Shown: positions 2,634-27,872 of the stretch, in pieces
Numbering within the stretch: position 1 is the stretch's first letter
Layout of the letters: each line of letters starts with the position of its first letter
Virus record (IMG/VR): IMGVR_UViG_3300031539_000211
Location: 1 to 29,821 of that record
Strand: one strand, 5' to 3'
DNA: 29,821 nucleotides
Source of the DNA: a virus
The notes under the pieces: model-generated
What the model was told of the DNA's origin: nothing
Database searches by the model: none
What the model saw: the letters and a program-made list of their open reading frames with translations, nothing else
Translations under genes and position numbers: made by a program

Positions 2634-4061
2634 TTAGTCCTCCAGTTCTGTGCCAACTCCCACCATGCCCAATGCCGGCCCTTCGGCCTCGATATCACTA
2701 ATCTCAGTCTCGACATTGACCGTCTCTGAGAGTATCCCTCGCCGCTTGACCTCGCGCAGGAACGTCAGACGTGACAAGTCGCTGGCCTGCCGCATTTTGA
2801 TGAGGTTGGCAATGTCCTCCGCTGCTCGCAGCCAGAGTGCAAAGTCATTGAACACATCCGCCTTGAAGTCCTCGGGCAATTCGACCTTGACCCACTCCGC
2901 TGCCAGCTTGTAGGCCCGGTACAGCAGACCCTCAAGCGTTATGACCCAGGCTTGGATATCGGAATTGGCCCGGGACTCGTCAATGCTCTGGCCGGTCGCC
3001 GTCTGTGTCCCCGTCACACGGGTAAATGGTTGCAGCCCCAGCATAACCATCTCTTCTTTCAGATCGGCGAGATCCTTGGCGCCGGCTTCAATCGCAGCCC
3101 CGCTATGCTCAACAAATTTCACGTCCGCGTTGGGATTCAGCGTAGAAATAAGTTGATTCGGACCCAAGGCAATGCCCTTGGTCTGCTCTTCATCGAAGCC
3201 TTTGACGAACAACGTCGCCGTCCGCGCGACGTGCAGGCAATTAGTTTGGTCGCTCTCGCTCTGAAAGTGTTTGCGGTTGCGTTCGGCCAGCTCTTTGAGC
3301 GGCGGCTCGCCGGTCAAGAATCCGGTCTGATTGCTGTAGGCCGTTACCAGGGGCACTTTGCCCAAGCTGTTCTTCCCGTCTTTCACGACGACGTACTCCT
3401 TGTCGTCGCCCTGTTTGGAATAAAGCCTCCATTGTTCGGGCTCGATGACCCGCACGTAGTGGACTTGCTTTTCGCCCCATTCCCCATCGGGTTCGGTTTT
3501 GGTCTCAGCGATTCGTATTTGTGTCAGCACGGGCTTGCCCGAGGCGTCCTCTTGCGTCCGCCAGCCGATGAGCTGGTCGGGCCTGACGTGAATCAGCCGT
3601 GGCCGGTAGCCCGCCGTTCTCTCTTGCTGCAAATTGGGCTTACTGCCGTCCTCGCTGACAGTAATGGGATAGTCGATGAGTACGTGTGTCACGCCGCGAT
3701 TGACCAAGTCCGCAAAGCAGTCTTTTGCCAACGCGCCCAACGCATTGCCCTGCCCGTCCACGTCGTCGGCAATGCTATCCAGCGGCTCGGTCAGTTCTCC
3801 CTGGATTGTTACCGGCCTGCTGAACGGCTTGCTGCAAATGGACTTGAACGTATCGGAGTAGGCGCCGAACAGACTGGAATTGGTCACGCGAATTTGGTAG
3901 TGGTTGATGTCCTCTTTCGGAAACTTGGGCAGATAGGTCGCCGCCCTGGCTCGCATGGCTTCGGAACCGGCCAGCAGATCATCAATCAAGCTCCATTGAC
4001 ACCTCATCGCATTATAGGCCCCGCACGGTGTATCCACTTTTGCTTCTTGTGTGTTTGCCAT
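2634..4061 (-). CDS. Phage portal protein
   Basis: A 475-residue protein between terminase and the MuF gene, where the portal is expected. It forms the dodecameric DNA channel at one capsid vertex. Recognisable features are an N-terminal Y..R...YLPKFPKED block, RPVTIQGELTEPLDS (about residue 85), GVTHVLIDYP (about 125) and a C-terminal SRANSDIQAWVITLEGLLYRAY-type helix. These resemble the DUF4055-type portal group as I remember it. The start ATG at 4061 follows the 57-residue gene at a short distance and begins MANTQEAKV. Length is typical for portals. Assignment to portal is good; the subfamily is less sure. Confidence 0.82.
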   Translation of the reverse strand: MANTQEAKVDTPCGAYNAMRCQWSLIDDLLAGSEAMRARAATYLPKFPKEDINHYQIRVTNSSLFGAYSDTFKSICSKPFSRPVTIQGELTEPLDSIADDVDGQGNALGALAKDCFADLVNRGVTHVLIDYPITVSEDGSKPNLQQERTAGYRPRLIHVRPDQLIGWRTQEDASGKPVLTQIRIAETKTEPDGEWGEKQVHYVRVIEPEQWRLYSKQGDDKEYVVVKDGKNSLGKVPLVTAYSNQTGFLTGEPPLKELAERNRKHFQSESDQTNCLHVARTATLFVKGFDEEQTKGIALGPNQLISTLNPNADVKFVEHSGAAIEAGAKDLADLKEEMVMLGLQPFTRVTGTQTATGQSIDESRANSDIQAWVITLEGLLYRAYKLAAEWVKVELPEDFKADVFNDFALWLRAAEDIANLIKMRQASDLSRLTFLREVKRRGILSETVNVETEISDIEAEGPALGMVGVGTELED

Positions 4062-4567: not shown

Positions 4568-6028
4568 TTAACCTGCTTGTCGTACATTCAACGTGTAGCG
4601 TTTTGTCAGTACGCGGTAGCGCGTTTCGTCCGCAACATGGTCCTCGGTCTCTGTATCTACGTCGTCCGTGTTGCGGCTGTCACGCGGAAGCGCCGGCACC
4701 GTTCGGATGAATTGCCGGCAGGTATCGAACACATAGAGGCCCGGCCCTTCCCCGACAACGCAGTTCTTGAATCGCTTGCGCATGAGTTCCCATCCGTTTG
4801 TGCGGCTGCCGGCTTTCTTGTCGGAGGGGTTCCATCGAACGCCGAGCTTCGCCATGTCCTCGGCAATGCACATGCCGTTTTGCGTAGAGAAGATCGAGGA
4901 ATCGGCCGAGCCCGGGTGAATGCGCCGGCCCAGCACCTTCTCGAAATTGACGATCTTTCGCGCCACCTCGACGGCCAACTCTTTTGTCCCTTCGTCCGGC
5001 TTGCCCGTCCAGCCGTACAACTCAGCGATGCGGAACAGATCGCCGCGCTGCGTGCTGCGTATGGTGCCGCCCGGCAATCTCACATCGCTGCCGTCCGACT
5101 CGGCCCAGAAGCCGACGGCATAGGGCTTCGAGCTGCCCCAGTCGAAAGAGCGGTCGATATACCAAGTTTCCGGGATCTCGAAGGGTTGCACCACGTGAAC
5201 ATCGGGGTCCCACACGTCATCGAACATGCCGCCAGCAACGATGTTCCAGTCGCCTTCGAGCCATGCCTTGCGGCGGACGCCAGTTTGTGATTTGAGCATC
5301 TTGACATAGGCCGGATCGTTCTGCAGGACAATCAGATTCTCCGAGATAGACCCGTGAACCGCAACCCGTTCGATGCCCTCATCGTCCCGCACAACTATTC
5401 CCCGCGGCGCTGGGTCGATGAATCGCATCTTTACCCAGTTGTGGCCAGTTCCGTATGGATTGCATGTCGCCCGAAAGTGACGCGGAATATTGGGATTCGT
5501 GGACCGACAGACCGTTCGCATCGCAATATAGAATTCGTCATTGGGCCATAGCGTCAACTCATCAAAGCCGATCCAGGGATATTCGTGACCGTGGTAATTC
5601 CAGTAGTCGTCCATGTTCTTGCCGTAGCGGAACAACAGCATTTCGCCGTCCGGCCATACCCAGCGGTGGTCTCCTTTGTTGTACTCTGCCCCTGGAAAAA
5701 TACGCCTAAACCATTTCTTCGATTTGACAATCAATTCTTCCAAGTCGGGATATTGCCTGCGGAATATAATACCCTTCCAATCCTCCCCGTAATCTCTCCC
5801 AACAAACTGCGCGAAGTCCATCAGCAGAGCATCGCTCTTGCCGGGCCCGCGTGTCCCCTCGTAGAGGCACTCGAAAATCGGACAGGCCCCAAACGCCTGC
5901 TGGCTGCCGGGCTGGGGCGCCCAGACTACGCTGGGTCCGTCTGCTCTTTCGCCTCGCCGTTGCCGTTGGCGACTCGGTCTTTGTAAAACTGTAGCCATGC
6001 TTCCTTGTCCATCGGCGGCGCTGTGCAT
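4568..6028 (-). CDS. terL: Terminase large subunit
   Basis: The packaging motor ATPase and nuclease, 486 residues from the ATG at 6028. The Walker A is GTRGPGKS (residues 58-65) and the Walker B is IGFDEL. The nuclease domain shows DWGSSKPYAVGFW, SADSSIF and a C-terminal acidic/His block, DTETEDHVADETRY, typical of the RNase H-fold nuclease. Start choice is uncertain: the ATG at 6028 has AAGGG upstream but gives a 103-base overlap with the small terminase. The ATG at 5998 has AAGGA only three bases away. The conserved domain begins near residue 50, so both fit. It acts with the small terminase just upstream and the portal downstream. Confidence 0.95.
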   Translation of the reverse strand: MHSAADGQGSMATVLQRPSRQRQRRGERADGPSVVWAPQPGSQQAFGACPIFECLYEGTRGPGKSDALLMDFAQFVGRDYGEDWKGIIFRRQYPDLEELIVKSKKWFRRIFPGAEYNKGDHRWVWPDGEMLLFRYGKNMDDYWNYHGHEYPWIGFDELTLWPNDEFYIAMRTVCRSTNPNIPRHFRATCNPYGTGHNWVKMRFIDPAPRGIVVRDDEGIERVAVHGSISENLIVLQNDPAYVKMLKSQTGVRRKAWLEGDWNIVAGGMFDDVWDPDVHVVQPFEIPETWYIDRSFDWGSSKPYAVGFWAESDGSDVRLPGGTIRSTQRGDLFRIAELYGWTGKPDEGTKELAVEVARKIVNFEKVLGRRIHPGSADSSIFSTQNGMCIAEDMAKLGVRWNPSDKKAGSRTNGWELMRKRFKNCVVGEGPGLYVFDTCRQFIRTVPALPRDSRNTDDVDTETEDHVADETRYRVLTKRYTLNVRQAG

Positions 6029-19646: not shown

Positions 19647-20206
19647 GGATTGCTTTCGAAAAAAGCCCGTGCGAAACCGGGCGGGGTAATCGAGCGTTGA
19701 AGTTTCCAACTACTCGACATCTTCGCTGTTCGGTCCCGCTTGCCGGGTGTACCGAGAAGAACGGGACGGTGGGCAATGCCAACCGACTGCGGTGATGTGA
19801 AGCTCCCCCATAACCAGGTACGTTTCGTCCAGGCGTCCCCAAACCACCAGGGATCGAATTTATAGCAAGGCTCTCCCAGATAGTCCTTGAGTCGCCCAGT
19901 AGGGTTCTCGATAGCCCACCATGCAGGTTTACATCTATGAATAATTCTCAGGCAGGCATCGACTATACTCAGACCATCCAGTAGCGCACTTGGGCCTTTA
20001 TTTTTCCACCATCGCGCGCCTACTCTGGCAAAGTGGTCACACGGCGGAGCGGCCAGAATCCCATGCACATTCTTCGGTGGGATGTAGAGCCTGACATCGT
20101 GCTCCGGCAATGTGATAAGCCTTACATCATATCCCGCGTCCCTGTACGGCTTCGACCAGGCCCCGGTTCCGCCACACAAATCAAGGATGATTTTGTCTTG
20201 GTTCAT
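19643..20206 (-). CDS. Short C5-cytosine methyltransferase-like protein
   Basis: A 187-residue protein with motif I LDLCGGTGAWSKP (residues 8-20), motif IV AAPPC (Cys56 as the catalytic candidate), motif VI AIENP (98-102) and motif VIII-like TKRTWLWG. The target-recognition region and motifs IX-X of Dcm-type enzymes are missing, so it is about half-length. Such short Dcm-like proteins are common in phages and may need a partner or act differently. The ATG at 20206 is chosen for its ATGA overlap with the PAPS-reductase-like gene and AGAAAGGG eight bases upstream. Confidence 0.75.
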   Translation of the reverse strand: MNQDKIILDLCGGTGAWSKPYRDAGYDVRLITLPEHDVRLYIPPKNVHGILAAPPCDHFARVGARWWKNKGPSALLDGLSIVDACLRIIHRCKPAWWAIENPTGRLKDYLGEPCYKFDPWWFGDAWTKRTWLWGSFTSPQSVGIAHRPVLLGTPGKRDRTAKMSSSWKLQRSITPPGFARAFFESNP

Positions 20207-20238
20207 TCCCATAACCCTTTCTGGCCCTGCCGGGCCTC
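20200..20238. repeat. Junction repeat J1, copy 1
   Basis: 39 bases spanning the end of the PAPS-reductase-like gene and the start of the C5-MTase-like gene. They include the ribosome site and ATGA overlap. 38 of 39 bases match the copy at 20985-21023; the only difference is ataacC versus ataacG. Confidence 0.95.
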
Positions 20239-20991
20239 CTTCACCGGAACGCCCGTCTCGTTCGTGGTTACAGCATCCCTGTTCAGCCACCATTGCCAAT
20301 ATGCCTCAGCGGAACCGTAAACATCTTTCGCCGGGTTATAGGTTGCTTTAATCGCCCGTTCCCAGGCCCTTGCTATCTGAGGCCAGCGTTGTATGTGCTT
20401 TTCAACGTCGCGGACCATCGGGCAAAGCACACACCCAAGTCGGGTAAACCCCTCTGCGTACAACGAGCAGACTTTTATTTCATGGCCCCGGATATATGAC
20501 CAGACATCATCGGTTGACCAATCAATGATGAGATTGAGGTATCGCTTGCTGATATCCTTGTAACAGGATTCGACCATGCCCCGTGCCGACCGTGCCGAAC
20601 TTTCGGCCCATCGGATGCCGGTAATAACCAAATGGTCACGCCCGCCAGATTCTTTTTGAGTCTCACAACAGTATCGCAAGTTGCGTCGTGGTGGGCACTG
20701 CTTTCGTTTTATGAGTTGCCACATCGTATGCTTGGGCCGGTGAATCTCCACATCAGGCTGCTCTTTGACATGCCGTACAACCTCCGGTGGGTCTGCCGTT
20801 GTCAACGCATGATGGGCTGTGTATTTCACCCCAGAACGCCGGACAAGGTCAAGAATGACATCGGAGTCTTTCCCCCCAGAATAGGCAACGTAATATCCGT
20901 CGTCAGCCATGTTCAAGGCAGATTCCTCAAACATGTGCAAACGCTCAATGGCAATCTGTTCCAGCGATTTGCCGAAAAGTATCTGGTTCAT
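20203..20991 (-). CDS. PAPS reductase/DndC-like ATP pyrophosphatase
   Basis: A 262-residue PP-loop protein: SGGKDS (residues 38-43), then YCCETQKE and later RLGCVLCPM, cysteines that in DndC-like proteins can hold an iron-sulfur cluster. The C-terminal half has YGSAEAYWQWWLNRD. Phage members annotated as PAPS reductase often sit beside DNA methyltransferases and ParB-like genes, so sulfur transfer or DNA modification is possible. The ATG at 20991 overlaps the ASCH stop (ATGA). The tail EARQGQKGLWE is shared with two neighbours. No complete dnd operon is visible. Confidence 0.82.
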   Translation of the reverse strand: MNQILFGKSLEQIAIERLHMFEESALNMADDGYYVAYSGGKDSDVILDLVRRSGVKYTAHHALTTADPPEVVRHVKEQPDVEIHRPKHTMWQLIKRKQCPPRRNLRYCCETQKESGGRDHLVITGIRWAESSARSARGMVESCYKDISKRYLNLIIDWSTDDVWSYIRGHEIKVCSLYAEGFTRLGCVLCPMVRDVEKHIQRWPQIARAWERAIKATYNPAKDVYGSAEAYWQWWLNRDAVTTNETGVPVKEARQGQKGLWE

Positions 20992-21023
20992 TCCCATAAC
21001 GCTTTCTGGCCCTGCCGGGCCTC
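20985..21023. repeat. Junction repeat J1, copy 2
   Basis: Spans the end of the ASCH gene and the start of the PAPS-reductase-like gene; 38/39 identical to copy 1. The coding sense gives ...RQGQKALWE stop and the next MNQ. Confidence 0.95.
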
Positions 21024-21350: not shown

Positions 21351-22828
21351 TTTGTTGCTCCAAACAAAGCCTGCTGGCCCTGCCGGGCCTCGTCTGCCGT
21401 CATTCCCGTTTCGCCTTGCAGCACTCGCCATTGGGCCTGCTCGGTGATGTAGTTGCCGTTGATCTCAATGCCGGTGTAGTTGCGCCCGAGCCTTGCCGCG
21501 ACCATACCCACCGTCCCTGAGCCAAAGAACGGGTCCAGCACTAAGGCCGGGACGGGATCGCCCGCGTTACAGTTGCAGGTGGGCCGCCAGCCGAGGGTCT
21601 TGGTGTCAGCGACTAATCCAAGTGTATTTTCGCGTCTGGCGTAATCTGTGCCGTCATAATCAGCCTTGTTACGCACATTTCGATTCGCTCTTGCTGGATG
21701 TTCCCGCAATTCGCCTTTGCTAATGATTCTCGCCCACGGCGCGCCGCAGCTCGGGCAGCAGCCCTTCTGGGAAGTAGAGACCTTGATGCAGGGTTCGACC
21801 AGGGCCTCCGGGAAGGTAGCGTAATGGCTGCCCTTGTATGCCTGGGGATTGATAACCCATACGTCGCGGAGGTTGCGGCCGCTGTTTTCTCGATAGCCTT
21901 CTTGTGCGCGATTCTCTTCGTGTCCGGCCGTTTTTCCTGTATCAAAACGACTTCCGGCCGCTCCCTTGACTTGTTCTTCTTTCACCGCCTCCATGTCGCA
22001 GAAATAATGGGGGCTTTTGGTCAGCATGAACAGGTACTCGTGCGCCTTGGTGCAGCGCCACGAGCCTTTGCGCAGCACGTAGCCGCCGTTCGGCTCGCAC
22101 TTTGGACAGCCGGGACAGTCTTGCCACTCGGCTTTAAGAGACATATCAAGTCTTGTGCTGCCATTTTCACAACCTGGGACACGAATCATATTATCGCCCG
22201 CCCCATTAGGTTTGTCGCGTGATGGTCTTTTCTTCACTTTCACCCTGCACCGCTCCCACCGCCAGCCGTTGACGCTTTCGGGCATGGTCGAGCCGCTGTA
22301 CTTCTCGCAGAATGACAGGGCCTTGGCCCAAATGACATCCGAGCGCAACCACCAGCCATCGGCCTGCAAGGCAAACGCCACCCGCCAGGGCAAGCCGAGA
22401 AGGTCTTTCGCTTTGAAGATTTCATGCCGAGCGTCATCAGGGGCTGTCCAGCCGGGTTTACCGATTTCCTGATGGGGCTTGCTGATACTTTCGTTTCTTT
22501 CAAAGCGGGCCTTCTGTTTTTCCGAACCACCGTGAGCACTTCGACCTTTGCCGCCCCATAGCTTGTCCCCGTAATTCAGCCACAGCACGCCGTCGGGCCG
22601 CAGGACGCGCCGGACCTCGCGGAAGCCGACCACGAGCTTTTCGATGTGCTCCTCGGGCGTCCTCTCAAGGCCAAGCTGGCCTTCGACCCCGTAATTGCGC
22701 TGACCCCAGTAGGGAGGAGACGTGATACAGCAGTGGAATCTATCCGATGGCAGGGTCTTGAGCGTCTCGACCCAATCCCCACAGATGATCTTGTTGACGA
22801 ACTCGTTTTCAAATTCTTCCGGCGTCAT
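21347..22828 (-). CDS. DNA N4/N6 methyltransferase, beta-class order
   Basis: A 493-residue adenine/cytosine amino-methyltransferase. The catalytic motif TSPPYWG (residues 36-42) comes first, with the SAM-binding motif FFGSGTVG near residue 440, which is the beta-class order. Between them is a long target-recognition region with two possible zinc sites (CPGCPKC about 245, CCPSCGAPW about 370). LDPFFGSGTVGMVAARLGRN and YTGIEI are typical. It ends EARQGQQALFGATK, with a clamp-motif-like QQALF. The ATG at 22828 has GAGAGAAAG upstream. It probably protects phage DNA from restriction; the target site is not readable. Confidence 0.92.
   Translation of the reverse strand: MTPEEFENEFVNKIICGDWVETLKTLPSDRFHCCITSPPYWGQRNYGVEGQLGLERTPEEHIEKLVVGFREVRRVLRPDGVLWLNYGDKLWGGKGRSAHGGSEKQKARFERNESISKPHQEIGKPGWTAPDDARHEIFKAKDLLGLPWRVAFALQADGWWLRSDVIWAKALSFCEKYSGSTMPESVNGWRWERCRVKVKKRPSRDKPNGAGDNMIRVPGCENGSTRLDMSLKAEWQDCPGCPKCEPNGGYVLRKGSWRCTKAHEYLFMLTKSPHYFCDMEAVKEEQVKGAAGSRFDTGKTAGHEENRAQEGYRENSGRNLRDVWVINPQAYKGSHYATFPEALVEPCIKVSTSQKGCCPSCGAPWARIISKGELREHPARANRNVRNKADYDGTDYARRENTLGLVADTKTLGWRPTCNCNAGDPVPALVLDPFFGSGTVGMVAARLGRNYTGIEINGNYITEQAQWRVLQGETGMTADEARQGQQALFGATK
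21374..21391. repeat. Junction repeat J1, partial copy 3
   Basis: ctggccctgccgggcctc, 18 bases identical to both full copies, at the 3' end of the N4/N6 methyltransferase gene just before the ASCH start. Confidence 0.9.
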
Positions 22829-22871: not shown

Positions 22872-23060
22872 CGTCGCCTCGTCAAACCTCTGGAATTTTA
22901 GCTTCACACTCGGAGCACACATAAACATAATGCCCCTCACGGTCGTCGTAGTATGTCGGATAACAAGTAACTCTCCGCAGCTTGCGGTGTTTATGGCAGA
23001 AATTACATCTTGTAGGCTTTCGTCTTCTATCTCGTTTGCTCATCTTGCCCTCGTCAAACC
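22869..23060. repeat. Junction repeat J4, two copies
   Basis: catcttgccctcgtcaaacc (23041-23060) and catcgtcgcctcgtcaaacc (22869-22888), 17 of 20 identical. They lie on each side of the 53-residue zinc gene and each includes an ATG and its ribosome site. Confidence 0.7.
22882..23043 (-). CDS. Small two-CxxC zinc-ribbon protein, 53 aa
   Basis: The ATG at 23043 (MSKRDRRRKPTRCNFCHKHR) is preceded by GAGGGCAAG and overlaps the previous stop in ATGA. CNFC and CSEC (YVYVCSECEAKIPEV) form a treble-clef/zinc-ribbon-like pair about 27 residues apart, with a basic N-terminus suitable for nucleic-acid binding. The longer open frame upstream (to 23238) reads through a different gene in the wrong frame and is rejected. 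Function unknown. Confidence 0.7.
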   Translation of the reverse strand: MSKRDRRRKPTRCNFCHKHRKLRRVTCYPTYYDDREGHYVYVCSECEAKIPEV

Positions 23061-23205
23061 ATCTGCCAATGCGTGTCGGTCCCAGGCGCTCAGCGGCACG
23101 GCCTGTTCCTTTCGGCGCTCGCGCTCCGTCTGCGCGGCCTTTGCGAGCTCCTTGATAGTCGGCGGGGCCTTGGGAACGCGTTTTTTTGCGGGGGAAGGGG
23201 TTCAT
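23040..23205 (-). CDS. Small basic protein requiring a +1 shift at an A7 run
   Basis: The ATG at 23205 overlaps the upstream stop (ATGA, junction J2) and opens MNPFPRKK. Seven adenines follow in the coding sense (plus-strand T7 at 23181-23187). Staying in frame gives low-complexity sequence that runs into the next gene. Skipping one A gives RVPKAPPTIKELAKAAQTER, then AVPLSAWDRHALADGLTRAR, and a TGA that overlaps the next ATG exactly as elsewhere in this region. The total would be 54 residues. Either ribosomal or polymerase slippage at A7, or a one-base homopolymer error, explains it. Function unknown. Confidence 0.6.
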
Positions 23206-23438
23206 TTCGGCTTGCCCCCGGCGCCACAGCTTTGGCATATCCTTCGCCCACGATTGCCTTTATTCGTTATCGGCCGGAAGGCATACCTCTTAACCTTTGT
23301 CCCGCACAATACACATGGCTCGCCTTTGCGCCGGCGCAGCTTGGCGAGAGTCCAAAGTTGGGACCCGTACCGCAAACTCGCAACGCCGATCACTTCATCG
23401 TTTAACCGGGTTTTGATTGTATAATCCGTTTTGCTCAT
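23202..23438 (-). CDS. Small zinc-finger protein, 78 aa
   Basis: Begins MSKTDYTIKTRLNDEVIGVA. It contains two CxxC pairs, PCVLCGTKVKRYAF and RRICQSCGAGG, separated by a basic stretch, which suggests one zinc site. It ends GGKPK, encoded by junction repeat J2. The ATG at 23438 overlaps the upstream TGA. The beta-hairpin before the first Cys pair is typical of small phage zinc proteins. No specific function. Confidence 0.7.
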   Translation of the reverse strand: MSKTDYTIKTRLNDEVIGVASLRYGSQLWTLAKLRRRKGEPCVLCGTKVKRYAFRPITNKGNRGRRICQSCGAGGKPK

Positions 23439-23677
23439 TTCGGCTTGCCCTCGGCGTTGAGCCGGTCGAGAAAATCGGCGATGTCATGGCACTGTCCGGC
23501 ATCCAATCCTTCGTAGATTCTTCGTCCCGAAAATTCCCATAGTTTGCGCTTCTTGTTAAACTGAACCCGGCCCAAAAACTGCTCCTCAATCTGTTCCTGA
23601 GCGTAAGCGAGATACGCCGTCTCATTGTCGTAAAGTTCCTCATCCTTGAACTCGACGTGTTCGTACTCCAGTTTCAT
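23435..23677 (-). CDS. Hypothetical acidic protein, 80 aa
   Basis: The ATG at 23677 (MKLEYEHVEFKDEELYDNET) has GGAG nine bases upstream, inside junction J2. The product has FLGRVQFNKKRKLWEFSGRR in the middle and ends DRLNAEGKPK, the J2-encoded tail also seen in the next gene. No domain recognised. Confidence 0.65.
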   Translation of the reverse strand: MKLEYEHVEFKDEELYDNETAYLAYAQEQIEEQFLGRVQFNKKRKLWEFSGRRIYEGLDAGQCHDIADFLDRLNAEGKPK

Positions 23678-23690
23678 TTCGGCTTGCTCC

Positions 23691-24164
23691 TTAATAAGCA
23701 TAGGAACTCTTTTCGCTCAGACACGCTCCGCACAGTATTTTATGGCGCCAGTAGCGCGGTAATTCCGGCCAATCAGTCCCCGACTCAGCGGCACAAATAA
23801 CGCCTTCGCGGTCACTCAGAAACAATTTGCCGCAAGCGTCGCACAGTTCGATCTCATCTGTGATGAGGTTGGCGTGCTCTTGCAAATGATAAAAAATAAC
23901 CCATGCTTTGCGGCGGCTCAATTTTAGTTCCTCGCGCAAGAATTTCCATACGCCTTCGGCTACCACGAGTTTCTCAGCGTTGTCGTCCCGATGTTTGCGG
24001 TCTTCGGAGTTTCGCGGGTTGAAGGCTTTACAATGTGACGCCGCTGTCTCTTGCTTGGTTTCTGCAAACCAGTAGCAGTAGAACCGATTGCACGAAGAAC
24101 AATGGTCGTCTCCATGTTGCCAGCAGTCACCGCACTTTCGATTCTCTTTGTTTTTCGTTTTCAT
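23691..24164 (-). CDS. Cys-rich zinc-binding protein, 157 aa
   Basis: The ATG at 24164 has AGGAG upstream. N-terminal cysteines CGDC, CSSC, CYWF and HCKAF (residues 11-45) make one probable site; CDACG and CGAC in the C-terminal half (about residues 108 and 147) make another. Between them is a helical segment, EGVWKFLREELKLSRRKAWV. The pattern suggests a nucleic-acid-binding zinc protein, but I do not recognise a family. Confidence 0.7.
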   Translation of the reverse strand: MKTKNKENRKCGDCWQHGDDHCSSCNRFYCYWFAETKQETAASHCKAFNPRNSEDRKHRDDNAEKLVVAEGVWKFLREELKLSRRKAWVIFYHLQEHANLITDEIELCDACGKLFLSDREGVICAAESGTDWPELPRYWRHKILCGACLSEKSSYAY

Positions 24165-24187
24165 TGCTTTTTCTCCTGAATCCTCAC

Positions 24188-24427
24188 TTATTCCAGATTC
24201 ATTTGCTCAATCAATCTGTTCAGACGCTCATGCCATCCAAAAATGGCCCCATAGATTTCGGGCGGTGCTGTCTCTGACGCCTGTTCGTACAATAGTTCCA
24301 GCCCTTCTGAAATTTCTTGCAGTTCATTGGTGTAAGGAATTCCGGTAGCCATCAGTTTCCTTTCTCGATTCGCTTGAGTACGTAGGGCAGCACCCAGGTT
24401 ATTAAGCTGTTTTATTGAGTCGCGCAT
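24188..24427 (-). CDS. Hypothetical helical protein, 79 aa
   Basis: From the ATG at 24427 (MRDSIKQLNNLGAALRTQAN) the product is helical and ends LNRLIEQMNLE. An alternative ATG at 24352 has a much better ribosome site (GAGAAAGGAAACTG) that belongs to junction family J3 and would give 54 residues, MATGIPYTNELQEISEG onward. The sequence cannot decide between them; a site-based choice would favour 24352. Function unknown. Confidence 0.5.
   Translation of the reverse strand: MRDSIKQLNNLGAALRTQANRERKLMATGIPYTNELQEISEGLELLYEQASETAPPEIYGAIFGWHERLNRLIEQMNLE
24348..24367. repeat. Junction repeat J3, outlying copy
   Basis: gccatcagtttcctttctcg, the J3 sequence with ttt in place of tcaccgc. It places GAGAAAGG before an ATGGC start, as in the other copies. 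Confidence 0.6.
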
Positions 24428-24444
24428 AGTTGGAATCAGTCGCC

Positions 24445-24918
24445 TCAAAAGTTTGTATGTGCAAATTCGCCGAAGTATTCTTTCGCCGCGGCGTCGTATG
24501 CTTGGGCCGCTTCGGTCTCGGAATCGAAGTAGCCGAGAAGGGTTTCTCGTCCTTTCATCTTGATTCGGGCTCGCCATTTAGCAGCACCCCAATGCCATGA
24601 CACGCCTTTGAATTTTGACGTTCCTTTTCGTGGCCTTCCGTTCTGGTGATTTTGTGCCGTGGTCGCGCAACGGAGATTATTTCGCCGGTTGTTCAGACCA
24701 TCGCCGTCTTTGTGGTCGGTCTCAAAGCCGGACGGGGGCTGCAAGATTTCCCGGTGCATAGCGATCAGTGTCCGCTTGCCTTTTTTGCGGGACGTGGTTC
24801 GCACGGCATACCAGGTATGATGCGATTTGCACGCACGCCACTTCCACCGACTCAGCCAGTCATAGTCAGCATCGTCAACGATGGTTGCTTTACCCCGTGT
24901 AAGTTTAATCTCCTTCAT
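24445..24918 (-). CDS. HNH endonuclease with AP2 DNA-binding domain
   Basis: A 157-residue homing-type endonuclease. The HNH motif is MHREIL...ETDHKDGDGLNNRRNNLR (residues about 57-85) and the AP2 domain is SKFKGVSWHWGAAKWRARIK, then LGYFDSETEAAQAYDAAAKE (about 103-150). This pairing is common for free-standing mobile endonucleases in phages. The ATG at 24918 has GGAG six bases upstream. It lies among the small cassettes and may itself be a mobile insertion that spreads by cleaving cognate DNA. Confidence 0.92.
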   Translation of the reverse strand: MKEIKLTRGKATIVDDADYDWLSRWKWRACKSHHTWYAVRTTSRKKGKRTLIAMHREILQPPSGFETDHKDGDGLNNRRNNLRCATTAQNHQNGRPRKGTSKFKGVSWHWGAAKWRARIKMKGRETLLGYFDSETEAAQAYDAAAKEYFGEFAHTNF

Positions 24919-24947
24919 GTTCATCTCCAAAAAAAATAGGTGAGCGG

Positions 24948-25589
24948 CTAATGTTCATGCTTCTCGATAGGCTCAAGGACGAGAGCCAGCACCCAGGGGT
25001 TGTCTCCCCATCGCTCGCCGGGCTTCGGATGAAGGCGGTCCCAGAGCATAGCGAAATTCTCTATTGAAGTCCGGTTCGCATATTCATGATCGCCATCTTT
25101 ATACTCAGCGATACCCTCTGCTCTTGCGTCAATGATGCTGATGTCCTGCACGCGTTCGACTCGGACGCCAGTGACTTCCCGCCAAATGCGAGCAAACTTT
25201 TTCGGCATGAAACGGCCGGTACGTACCCTGCCCATGTGCTTGTCGCGTTTCCAACCTAAGTGGTCGGGGAACCAGATATTGATGCCGACAGGAATAGCCC
25301 GTGGCGGTACGGAATCATATTGACGGTCTGCCGCCCAAGTCTCTTTAGCATAGAGGTGGTCCCCGACCCGATAGCGGGATTCTTTGCCAATTTCTTTGGA
25401 CAAAAATTCTGCCGTGCATGAATTAAGTTGCACTTTTTTGGTTCGCCAGGACCAGCCTGCGGCTTTTAAGCCATTGCGCTCTTCCCAATTCGGTTGTGGT
25501 TTAATTAATCGCCGCGTCTGCGTCTTTCGGTTATCGAGAAACGCCTGAGCCATTGCCTCACAAGTATTCAATCCCAGTTCGCGTGCCAT
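24948..25589 (-). CDS. ASCH-like phage protein
   Basis: A 213-residue protein. FLDNRKTQTRRLIKPQPNWE near the N-terminus, then YRVGDHLYAKETWA and MPKKFARIWREVTGVRVERV form the well-known phage ASCH-like pattern (rKTqTRR...vGD.lyvrEtW...mP...sRi.l.i..vrverlq), with a C-terminal PWVLALVLEPI strand. The ATG at 25589 has AGAAAGGCGGTG (junction J3) upstream and overlaps the previous stop by one base (TGATG). It is possibly involved in handling modified nucleic acid; the substrate is unknown. Confidence 0.8.
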   Translation of the reverse strand: MARELGLNTCEAMAQAFLDNRKTQTRRLIKPQPNWEERNGLKAAGWSWRTKKVQLNSCTAEFLSKEIGKESRYRVGDHLYAKETWAADRQYDSVPPRAIPVGINIWFPDHLGWKRDKHMGRVRTGRFMPKKFARIWREVTGVRVERVQDISIIDARAEGIAEYKDGDHEYANRTSIENFAMLWDRLHPKPGERWGDNPWVLALVLEPIEKHEH

Positions 25590-25789
25590 CAGTCACCGCC
25601 TTTCTCGCTTGCATCGCGCAGTTGGCATATTAGATGAACAACGGCCTCAATGGCCTTTTCTCTGTCAGGCGTTTCGTCGGCCACTGCAAAACCACAAGAC
25701 AAATCAGACTCCAGTATTTGAGAGGCGACCCCTTTGGCCCATTTAGCATAGGAAAATCGTTTGATATGTTTCGCTCGTTCACGCGCCAT
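25589..25789 (-). CDS. Hypothetical protein, 66 aa, J3 cassette
   Basis: The ATG at 25789 has AAAGGACGGTGACTG upstream (junction J3); the product begins MARERAKHIKRFSYAKWAKG and ends RDASEKGGD, the J3-encoded tail. Its first codons (MARE) match those of the next gene at the peptide level. Helical and basic at the N-terminus. No domain recognised. Confidence 0.65.
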   Translation of the reverse strand: MARERAKHIKRFSYAKWAKGVASQILESDLSCGFAVADETPDREKAIEAVVHLICQLRDASEKGGD

Positions 25790-25968
25790 CAGTCACCGTC
25801 CTTTCTCGAACAATCGGGACATACCCATTTGCCTTTGATTTTTCGCCAGCCATCGTGTCGCAGAATCTGGACGAACAATTTCTTCGTCGGCTCGCTCCAC
25901 TGGAACCAGAACGCGCAGCGAGAACACCAAGCCGTATGTTCCGTCATGATTTTGCCCTCACCCGGCAT
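25789..25968 (-). CDS. Zinc-ribbon protein, 59 aa, J3 cassette
   Basis: ATG at 25968 to a TGA at 25789-25791 that overlaps the next start (TGATG). The product begins MPGEGKIMTEHTAWCSRCAF and ends WVCPDCSRKDGD. CSRC and CPDC about 31 residues apart form a probable zinc ribbon. The ribosome site is the J3 junction (GGACGGTGACTGATC). An internal ATG at codon 8 is possible. Too short to assign a function. Confidence 0.7.
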   Translation of the reverse strand: MPGEGKIMTEHTAWCSRCAFWFQWSEPTKKLFVQILRHDGWRKIKGKWVCPDCSRKDGD

Positions 25969-25970
25969 GA

Positions 25971-26165
25971 TCAGTCACCGTCCTTCCGCTGGGTATTTTC
26001 TTCGCAAGCGATCCAACCGGCGGCGAAGGTCCTCTCAAGCCGATTCTTGAGGTAGATGTCATTGGCCTCTAAGGGCTTCGAGTTGAGGGTGTTGGCCTTG
26101 CACAAAAACTGGCCTTGTTCACTCTGAAAAAACTCGTCGTGTGCTTTTTTGAATGGTGTTTCCAT
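25971..26165 (-). CDS. Hypothetical protein, 64 aa, J3 cassette
   Basis: The ATG at 26165 gives METPFKKAHDEFFQSEQGQF; a GTG at 26174 would add three codons. AGGTGACTGAT, a shortened J3, lies upstream. The product has FAAGWIACEENTQRKDGD at its end; the A.GW.A pattern is common in small phage proteins of unknown role. No zinc site. Confidence 0.65.
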   Translation of the reverse strand: METPFKKAHDEFFQSEQGQFLCKANTLNSKPLEANDIYLKNRLERTFAAGWIACEENTQRKDGD

Positions 26166-26174
26166 ATCAGTCAC

Positions 26175-26372
26175 CTATGAAATTTTCAGGGAGATTTTGA
26201 CGGTTTTCCCGCAGTTTACACATTTTTGCTTTTTCCCTTCCTTGGTACTAATCGCAATGGAATCTACACCCTCTCCTTCCCAATTATAGATTTGGTGGTC
26301 AGTTGTTTTAATAACTGTGTAAAAACCACAAGTATCCCCGCAGTCAGGGCATTTGTATTGAGCCTTCGCCAT
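26175..26372 (-). CDS. Zinc-ribbon protein, 65 aa, J3 cassette
   Basis: Starts at the ATG at 26372 behind AGAAAGGCGGTGACTG (J3). CPDCGDTCGFYTV and KCVNCGKTVKI form two CxxC pairs about 43 residues apart, a zinc ribbon with a long insert (YNWEGEGVDSIAISTKEG). Small phage zinc ribbons of this kind usually have no assigned function. Probably nucleic-acid binding or structural. Confidence 0.7.
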   Translation of the reverse strand: MAKAQYKCPDCGDTCGFYTVIKTTDHQIYNWEGEGVDSIAISTKEGKKQKCVNCGKTVKISLKIS

Positions 26373-26848
26373 CAGTCACCGCCTTTCTCTTCTGTCGCAC
26401 TACAGAAGCCGGGCAGGGCTTTCTGGAAGCCCCGAGCCTGCAAACTCTCATAGAATGTCTGCTTGTGCGCACGGTCGAACAGGTAGGGCAAAAAGACTTC
26501 CAGAACGTCAACCTGGGCAAGTTCCACCATTGCCATCTGCGCATCGACCCAATCCGCCAGAATCTTCCACGCCGTGCGCTCCGCCTGCTGAGTAATGTGT
26601 TTGTAGGTGTCCTTGCGCGGTCTGCGTACCTCAGCCCGCAGCACCTTCTCGGCAGCCGCAATCCGGGCAGGAAGGTGAAACGGCAATTCGATTCCGTTGC
26701 TGTGAATGATAAAGGCAATCGACGCCACCCTGCCGTCGGCTGTGTATTCCTTGAGGATTTGCCTGGCCCCATGACGCGCCAGTTTGTCCTCAATCCAGCT
26801 TATCGACCGACTGGCCGATACCTGACTGGTGTAGTTTTTTAGTGCCAT
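26372..26848 (-). CDS. Conserved phage early protein, 158 aa
   Basis: The ATG at 26848 has GAAAGGAG upstream. The pattern SWIEDKLARHGARQILKEYT, then GIELPFHLPARIAAAEKVLR, then AERTAWKILADWVDAQMAMV and VFLPYLFD is one I know from a widespread phage early protein family of unknown function, often near recombination genes. It ends SATEEKGGD, the J3-encoded tail. It is the first gene after the tandem terminators and the structured gap. Confidence 0.7.
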   Translation of the reverse strand: MALKNYTSQVSASRSISWIEDKLARHGARQILKEYTADGRVASIAFIIHSNGIELPFHLPARIAAAEKVLRAEVRRPRKDTYKHITQQAERTAWKILADWVDAQMAMVELAQVDVLEVFLPYLFDRAHKQTFYESLQARGFQKALPGFCSATEEKGGD

Positions 26849-26867
26849 TTGACTCCTTTCAAAGGTT

Positions 26868-26889
26868 GCCGCAGATCACCCGCTGCGGC
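26868..26889. promoter_or_regulatory. Leader hairpin before the 158-aa gene
   Basis: GCCGCAG (26868-26874) and CTGCGGC (26883-26889) form a perfect 7-bp stem with an 8-base loop, just upstream of the GAAAGGAG ribosome site. No U-run follows, so it is not a terminator. It may protect or regulate the leader. Confidence 0.5.
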
Positions 26890-27010
26890 GCCGGGTTTAA
26901 GGAGTTATGAAAACCTCAAGGCCGGAGTTTTCCGCCCACTTGCCGGCTGGGGCTATGTGGAGATAACAGTCTCAACTTTTCAAGGCCATCGTCCGCGTTT
27001 TCCTTTCTTT

Positions 27011-27073
27011 CAAAAAAGCCGGCAGCGCGGGTCGCTACCCCGCGTATCGGCCAGCGCACTTCTTCGCTGCCGG
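27011..27073 (-). terminator. Branched rho-independent terminator candidate
   Basis: CCGGCAGCG (27019-27027) pairs perfectly with CGCTGCCGG (27065-27073), with an inner GC stem (GCGGG/CCCGC). On the minus strand it is followed by C and TTTTTT (27012-27017). It follows the recT/nuclease operon. Confidence 0.7.
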
Positions 27074-27090
27074 TCGTATTCACGTGTCAG

Positions 27091-27144
27091 AAAAATCAGG
27101 GCCGGGTTGACCCTTTTTGCCGAAGTAATCAAGCCCCGGCCCTG
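27091..27144 (-). terminator. Terminator-like hairpin after the nuclease gene
   Basis: CAGGGCCGGG (27097-27106) and CCCGGCCCTG (27135-27144) form a perfect 10-bp inverted repeat with a 28-base loop, nine bases after the nuclease stop. On the minus strand A and TTTTT follow (27091-27095). The long loop makes it a weaker terminator. Together with the next hairpin it may instead act in antitermination. Confidence 0.6.
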
Positions 27145-27152
27145 TCACGGCC

Positions 27153-27872
27153 TTACAAAAACGTCTTGATAAACAGCGATTCCTCAATGTCCTTGCGCAC
27201 CATCTTCTTGTCCATGTTGTCGGACGAACAATGCAGTAGGTGGATCTCCCGGCATTGGCTCAGGTTACAAAACTCCTTCACGTACCGTTTCGCCACACGC
27301 CATTCGGTATGAGAGACGAGCAGTCGCTCGGCCAGCGTCTCGTTGATCTCCTGTCGCTCCACGCGTCCGGCCAATACGTCTTTGTCGTAGCTGGCCGAGA
27401 TGGCAATGATATCGAACGCGATACCGAATCGCTGCGTGATGTGCGAGGTGTCGGTGACGAAAAAAAGGTTCTCATCCCCGGCATTTTCGTGGACGATGAA
27501 CCCCAACGGCTCCTTCGCATCGTGGTGGACCGCGAAGGGGAATACCTCGAACGTCTCGCTGATGGCAAATCGTTCCCCGTCTCGGATGGTGTGCGTCCGT
27601 CGATGCAGGTGCAGCGACTCTTCAATCCCCAGGAATGTGCCTTCGCTCGCATAGACATCAATCCCAGCCTTTAGGATATTCTCAACGCCCTGGCTGTGGT
27701 CCTTGTGTTCGTGTGTGACCAAGCAACCGTCGATAGCCGTCAGATCGTACTTGAGGGCCTTCTGGAGTTTCTTCCACGTCACGCCGCACTCAATGAGCAA
27801 CCGCCTCCCGTTGGCCGCGGTGACGGTGTAAAAGTTGCCCGAGCTCGATGAGTAGAAGGTCTCAAACGTCAT
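27153..27872 (-). CDS. Metallo-beta-lactamase-fold nuclease, RecT partner
   Basis: A 239-residue MBL-fold hydrolase. Strand-loop SSSSGNFYTV opens the fold. HEHKDH (residues 54-59) is the HxHxDH dinuclear metal site; later ligands are likely FVTDTSH (Asp/His) and LLHCSSDN (His). Members of this YycJ/WalJ-like group sit beside recT in many phages and are thought to provide the 5'-3' exonuclease that makes single strands for annealing. The ATG at 27872 overlaps the RecT stop (ATGA), so the two are made together. Nuclease polarity is inferred from family context. Confidence 0.87.
   Translation of the reverse strand: MTFETFYSSSSGNFYTVTAANGRRLLIECGVTWKKLQKALKYDLTAIDGCLVTHEHKDHSQGVENILKAGIDVYASEGTFLGIEESLHLHRRTHTIRDGERFAISETFEVFPFAVHHDAKEPLGFIVHENAGDENLFFVTDTSHITQRFGIAFDIIAISASYDKDVLAGRVERQEINETLAERLLVSHTEWRVAKRYVKEFCNLSQCREIHLLHCSSDNMDKKMVRKDIEESLFIKTFL

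Follow-up and report, generated by a model that had tools for sequence, protein, structure and literature searches.

A recurring stop, ribosome-site and start junction joins arrays of unrelated small genes in uncultivated phages

Results

The gene array in the window

The window analysed here, which is the whole stretch of 29,821 nucleotides from IMG/VR virus record IMGVR_UViG_3300031539_000211, contains a run of genes, all on the minus strand, whose boundaries share a recurring sequence of 16-17 nt that ends one mini-gene and starts the next (Table 1). This sequence, J3, has the core AAAGGCGGTGA[C/A]TGAT on the minus strand and is found at five consecutive gene boundaries within positions 25585-26390. 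An exact 22-mer (GAGAAAGGCGGTGACTGATGGC) spans the first and fifth copies, for which the chance expectation is 0.00, the third and fourth copies have the form GGACGGTGACTGAT, and when GGTGACTGATGG was searched with up to two mismatches, nine matches were obtained against 2.05 expected, a number reached in no shuffle. The five consecutive junctions that had been noticed in a sequence-only reading of this DNA are thus confirmed beyond chance, and its coordinates proved right, the weaker sixth copy being a decayed J3. A search of Rfam with window positions 23000-27200 gave one sub-threshold chance match only, and no curated RNA family was found for J3.

Table 1 Genes and J3 copies of the window array, in the order of the minus strand.
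Feature	Position	Strand	Remarks
Conserved phage protein, 158 aa, first array gene	26372..26848	-	phrog_17260, E 6e-9
J3 copy 1 (GAAAGGCGGTGACTGAT)	26371..26387	-	Boundary of 158-aa gene and 65-aa zinc ribbon; exact 22-mer
65-aa zinc ribbon	26175..26372	-	Low GC
J3 copy 2, partial (only GGTGACTGAT)	26166..26175	-	Boundary of 65-aa zinc ribbon and 64-aa METPFKK gene
64-aa METPFKK cassette	25971..26165	-	Homologue in L036 J3 array, 40% identity, E 4e-11
J3 copy 3 (GAAGGACGGTGACTGAT)	25970..25986	-	Boundary of 64-aa gene and 59-aa zinc ribbon
59-aa zinc ribbon	25789..25968	-	Two CxxC pairs in sequence
J3 copy 4 (GAAAGGACGGTGACTGAT)	25788..25805	-	Boundary of 59-aa zinc ribbon and 66-aa gene
66-aa protein, no assigned function	25589..25789	-	No Pfam or phrog family match
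J3 copy 5 (GAAAGGCGGTGACTGAT)	25588..25604	-	Boundary of 66-aa gene and 213-aa ASCH-like gene; exact 22-mer
213-aa ASCH-like protein, last gene with intact J3	24948..25589	-	phrog_874, E 2e-37
HNH/AP2 endonuclease gene	24445..24918	-	PF13392, E 2e-8; phrog_99, E 7e-38; between ASCH-like gene and decayed J3
37 nt, tentative remnant of ASCH-like 3' end	24362..24398	-	76% to 24961-24997; directly before decayed J3
J3 copy 6, decayed (GAGAAAGGAAACTGATG; GGTG lost)	24350..24366	-	Precedes 54-aa ORF starting at 24352

The gene of the 65-aa zinc ribbon has a GC content of 0.41 (gene mean 0.54, sd 0.04). Anti-phage defence models gave no matches to the cassettes, the array DNA had no direct relatives among annotated phages, and the ASCH-like gene, when used as bait in IMG/VR, retrieved the same virus only, of which the only other record found is identical over 9.4 kb. 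The 213-aa protein, which had been described as ASCH-like, is related to an ASCH-like protein of another array phage (L174) that scores just below the ASCH cut-off, whereas Pfam does not call ASCH for the window protein itself. The 158-aa protein has relatives in IMG/VR at 38-56% identity, and no J3 array was found behind the gene in the closest of these among the matches listed. Two of its relatives (L004 and L005) carry a repeated junction of their own (CGTGGTTYCGAAAATTGAGGTTTGAGTCATGG) at about 3420-3450 and 5017-5047, before two different genes, and repeated junctions are therefore not limited to J3.

On the other side of the array lies the pair described earlier as RecT and a nuclease. 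The adjoining RecT is real by profile match, but its neighbour is an MBL-fold hydrolase (phrog_392) and not a classical exonuclease. This hydrolase (window 27153-27872) also resembles the anti-Pycsar protein Apyc1, with a score (E 3e-8) that falls short of the Pfam cut-off. A phage-type tyrosine integrase is located about 9 kb from the array in the 43.5-kb record, no serine recombinase was found in this record, and no cassette integrase was found linked to the array.

At the opposite end, the 37-nt stretch before the decayed J3 reads in frame like the 3' end of the ASCH-like gene (WVLPYVLKRIEKGN, followed by a stop). In the simplest reading, the endonuclease gene may have entered near this 3' end and parted the ASCH-like gene from the sixth junction, which is offered tentatively because such brief matches between two copies can arise by chance.

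J3 as a junction of stop, ribosome site and start

The segment AAAGGCGGTGA is presumably nearly complementary to the 3' end of 16S rRNA (the general anti-Shine-Dalgarno tail). Four of the window's five copies have a predicted rRNA pairing of -17 to -18 kcal/mol, the median of other window genes being about -8, and throughout the array genomes J3 gives the strongest predicted pairing (median -16.9 kcal/mol, against -8.2 for other genes). Across phages, the stop could be assigned for 32 copies, and in 23 of these the TGA of J3 terminates the upstream gene, with the tails KGGD, KGGE and KDGD, and the following start codon overlaps this TGA (TGATG) or comes within a few nucleotides. Because J3 joins stop, Shine-Dalgarno and start in this manner, gene ends carry the ribosome site of the next gene. 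A role as translation junction appears well supported by these features, and we infer that translation may be coupled across J3.

The tails EKGGD and KDGD, which had been proposed to be dictated by the repeat, are found in four of the five upstream genes, and the exception is the 65-aa zinc ribbon, which ends in ISLKIS with its own TAG stop before the second copy. Two further readings are disfavoured, namely that the array is a diverged tandem gene duplication or that the KGGD tail peptide itself is selected. Either would agree with the observations that adjacent junctions are most alike and that those 23 of 32 copies share one phase of the stop. However, the tail peptide is not the reason for J3, because J3 was kept at 26166-26175 where the upstream gene stops before it, and no similarity could be detected when the window cassettes were compared with one another, which speaks against duplication and bears out the earlier description of the cassettes as unrelated. 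We consider both readings highly improbable.

J3 is more than a generic ribosome site

Another explanation is that J3 copies are merely convergent strong ribosome sites with a stop/start overlap. The near complementarity of the core to rRNA would be expected from it, TGATG is a common coupling arrangement, and AAGG and GGAG are also used at other starts of the array genomes. However, the centre base of J3 is C, not A, T or G, and rRNA pairing prefers A. Among 30 J3 starts in the array genomes, C was present at the centre in 22 and A in none, in contrast to 5 and 11, respectively, among 191 other starts (Fisher p 4e-6). In IMG/VR, the 17-mer with C was found in 62 stretches and occurred in multiple copies in 14 of them, whereas the perfect-pairing 17-mer was found in 38 stretches and never in multiple copies (p 8e-4, which is optimistic as related contigs were counted separately). 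The CTGAT end is also kept in three J3 copies in which it has no stop or start role. J3 is not simply the best ribosome site, and convergence is a disfavoured and improbable explanation.

The junctions are also organized locally. All eight highly similar junction pairs of the window belong to three local clusters, each with a junction sequence of its own (permutation p = 0.0005): J1 around 20.2-21.4 kb, J2 around 23.2-23.7 kb, and J3. The J3 17-mer was present in at least 80 stretches of bacterial and archaeal genomes (257 Gb), which is close to the chance expectation of 60 from simple arithmetic, and an array was found in none of them.

The two other families were recorded as follows. Copies of J1 (window 20199-20238, 20984-21023 and 21352-21391; up to 40 nt, 98% identical) end a PAPS-reductase-like gene and an ASCH gene and start the genes that follow. 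Their shared tails are GQKALWE, GQKGLWE and GQQALFGATK, in which we presume a resemblance to the sliding-clamp binding motif. The defence-related BrxP model also recognizes the PAPS-reductase-domain protein (window 20203-20991; E 4e-21). J2 (GCAAGCCGAAATGA) lies at three consecutive boundaries (23201-23218, 23434-23451 and 23673-23690), and two upstream genes end in GKPK.

J3 arrays in other phages

Scans of IMG/VR revealed J3 arrays in several contigs of uncultivated phages. The terminases of the window virus and of a group of array phages represented by L176 are of different types, as judged by the closest isolate phages, and J3 arrays therefore cross phage lineages. For example, J3 precedes six consecutive genes in L174, and the third cassette of L036 is homologous to the window METPFKK cassette (Table 1), also stands behind J3 and has the same TGATATG start spacing; in both of these arrays, a zinc-ribbon gene, of weak similarity, is found just before the METPFKK-type cassette. 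Since the J3 copies of L222 and L174 vary in sequence, some neighbouring copies share short homology only. An upstream extension, AAGCCCT, gave no general signal as part of J3 and characterizes a subfamily only (L174, L175, L036 and L222). RecT was found in one of the eight array records, that of the window, and most of the records are fragments.

Cassette C as bait confirmed the window virus alone, cassettes A and C gave no matches to isolate phages by tblastn, and a 30-nt blastn query of J3 with the upstream extension gave weak single matches to isolate phages, several at portal genes, and no arrays. As a separate observation, a 21-nt coiled-coil repeat, GAGCGAATCRAAGAGCTTGAG, which encodes ERIKELE, is located within different cassettes of L222 (5487-6037), L036 (4175) and L176 (5607) and is absent from the window, and the fusion proteins of L176 and L222 have a zinc-ribbon domain in common; exchange therefore also extends to the inside of genes.

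Cassette turnover at the terminase locus

Nine contigs of one related group have cassettes between the small and large terminase genes, and at this same locus most of them contain differing J3-joined cassettes. These are A-B-C-D in L036, E-A-F in L176 and L020, X-Y-Z-D-TM in L222, B in L226, B'-G in L083 and L057, A'-F' in L049, and a deletion derivative of the L083 type in L225. Cassette A was also found in L174, a different phage (64%). Between L036 and L049, cassette A is 91% identical, compared with 74% for the small and 79.5% for the large terminase, and it therefore has its own, more recent history. This match continues up to and including the final base of J3 and goes no further, because the next genes in the two contigs are unrelated. 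L226 can be read as L036 minus A, joined within J3. Similarity blocks start or stop at J3, but the two youngest deletions observed (89 bp and 275 bp; L083 compared with L057 and L225), whose flanks are about 99% or more identical, have no J3 breakpoints, and repeats at cassette ends also attract alignment ends.

The sequence-only reading had presented the locus as a tandem array of swappable mini-genes next to a RecT/nuclease pair able to recombine short homologies. Its first part is upheld by tandem, unrelated genes whose content and order differ between relatives, and by a junction that would allow translation of a cassette whichever one precedes it; the cassettes are not identical in all relatives, and similar junctions are present in uncultivated phages with unrelated terminases. 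The recombination role of J3 and RecT, on the other hand, is weakened by the occurrence of RecT in a single array record, by the position of the youngest deletions observed away from J3 and by the short homology between some neighbouring copies in L222 and L174.

Discussion

It is not settled how phages come by and trade their many small genes of unassigned function; conserved boundary sequences are one proposal, but at many module boundaries none is seen. In the J3 arrays of several unrelated phages, a gene boundary and an expression signal fall together with a candidate homology for recombination, and turnover of cassettes is visible.

We favour the explanation that J3 is a translational junction which probably serves also as short homology for cassette turnover. 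It would be a composite gene junction of tailed phages, made up of the final codons and stop codon of the preceding gene, an extended Shine-Dalgarno sequence and an overlapping or adjacent start. Any cassette could then follow any other and be translated, most likely via coupled re-initiation, as each gene ends with a ribosome site for whichever gene follows and the cassettes are thereby interchangeable in order. With the same 16-17 nt at every boundary, annealing or template-switch recombination would find short homology there, and cassettes could be gained, lost and moved between phages with their reading frames intact. J3 would be the likely crossover site, and RecT may take part in the turnover. 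More tentatively, and with somewhat greater doubt, we propose that J3 could be an integrase-free, translation-level cassette junction by which unrelated phages trade small genes, homology and expression signal being the same 17 bases.

Alternatively, J3 may be a purely regulatory start-associated sequence on co-regulated genes, acting as a translation signal or as a site for a phage or host factor, with turnover by illegitimate recombination from which the J3-keeping products survive. The ribosome-site position of J3, which resembles that of the start-associated sequences of Cluster K phages, the conservation of its core beyond plain pairing and the youngest deletions away from J3 agree with this explanation. 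However, other small-gene runs of the same genome have their own run-confined junctions, which a single motif would not predict, and cassette similarity ends exactly at J3. We regard a purely regulatory role as unlikely but plausible. That J3 connects different sets of mini-genes in unrelated uncultivated phages suggests that it is a plug by which small genes are gained, lost and swapped. In practice, J3 also provides a simple tag with which further small accessory genes of phages can be found by sequence.

Comparison with known systems

No description of the J3 junction was found in the literature searched, in which few subscription papers were covered. Several known systems share features with it. 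Integron arrays are rows of small genes that can be exchanged and that all end in one type of site, and J3 arrays are likewise tandem small genes that end in a common site. Unlike attC, J3 is asymmetric and showed no attC-like palindrome on inspection, and no integron integrase is linked to it.

In lambdoid phages, conserved boundary (linker) sequences have been put forward as places where homologous recombination occurs (Susskind and Botstein 1978, Clark et al. 2001, as cited in PMC3233612). On that account, J3 resembles them as a short conserved sequence at module boundaries and fits the older proposal of boundary recombination, but the linkers mostly differ from boundary to boundary, whereas J3 recurs as a single sequence from one boundary to the next.

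The start-associated sequence (SAS) of Cluster K mycobacteriophages is a short repeat near starts with the 13-bp consensus GGGATAGGAGCCC (PMC3203893), and a similar motif, GGGAAAGGACCCC, is found in Microbacterium phages of Cluster EF (PMC7302621). Like SAS, J3 is short and asymmetric, occupies the place of the ribosome site in some of the genes, in one orientation and mostly before ATG, and is conserved beyond rRNA pairing (C centre and CTGAT end). In contrast to both SAS forms, the J3 core does not match the SAS consensus, and J3 takes in the stop codon of the upstream gene and, in many cases, the start codon, joins consecutive small genes and spans phages with unrelated terminases.

The promoter early stem-loops (PeSLs) of T4-type phages reportedly bring about the shuffling of genes (Arbiol et al. 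2010, Comeau et al. 2014, as cited in PMC4503421 and PMC3950731). As far as these citing accounts describe them, J3 is similar in being a repeated expression signal between small genes that is tied to shuffling, since cassette content differs at the homologous locus. PeSLs combine a promoter with a terminator stem-loop, whereas J3 has neither stem-loop nor promoter character and would by its sequence act at the level of translation; adjacent genes overlap or lie a few nucleotides apart at J3, which leaves no room for a promoter and stem-loop, so that J3 is not of the PeSL type. Because both sequence and architecture differ, J3 belongs to neither SAS nor PeSL, and by analogy it may be viewed as a translation-level counterpart of the T4 PeSLs and the start-associated sequences of mycobacteriophages.
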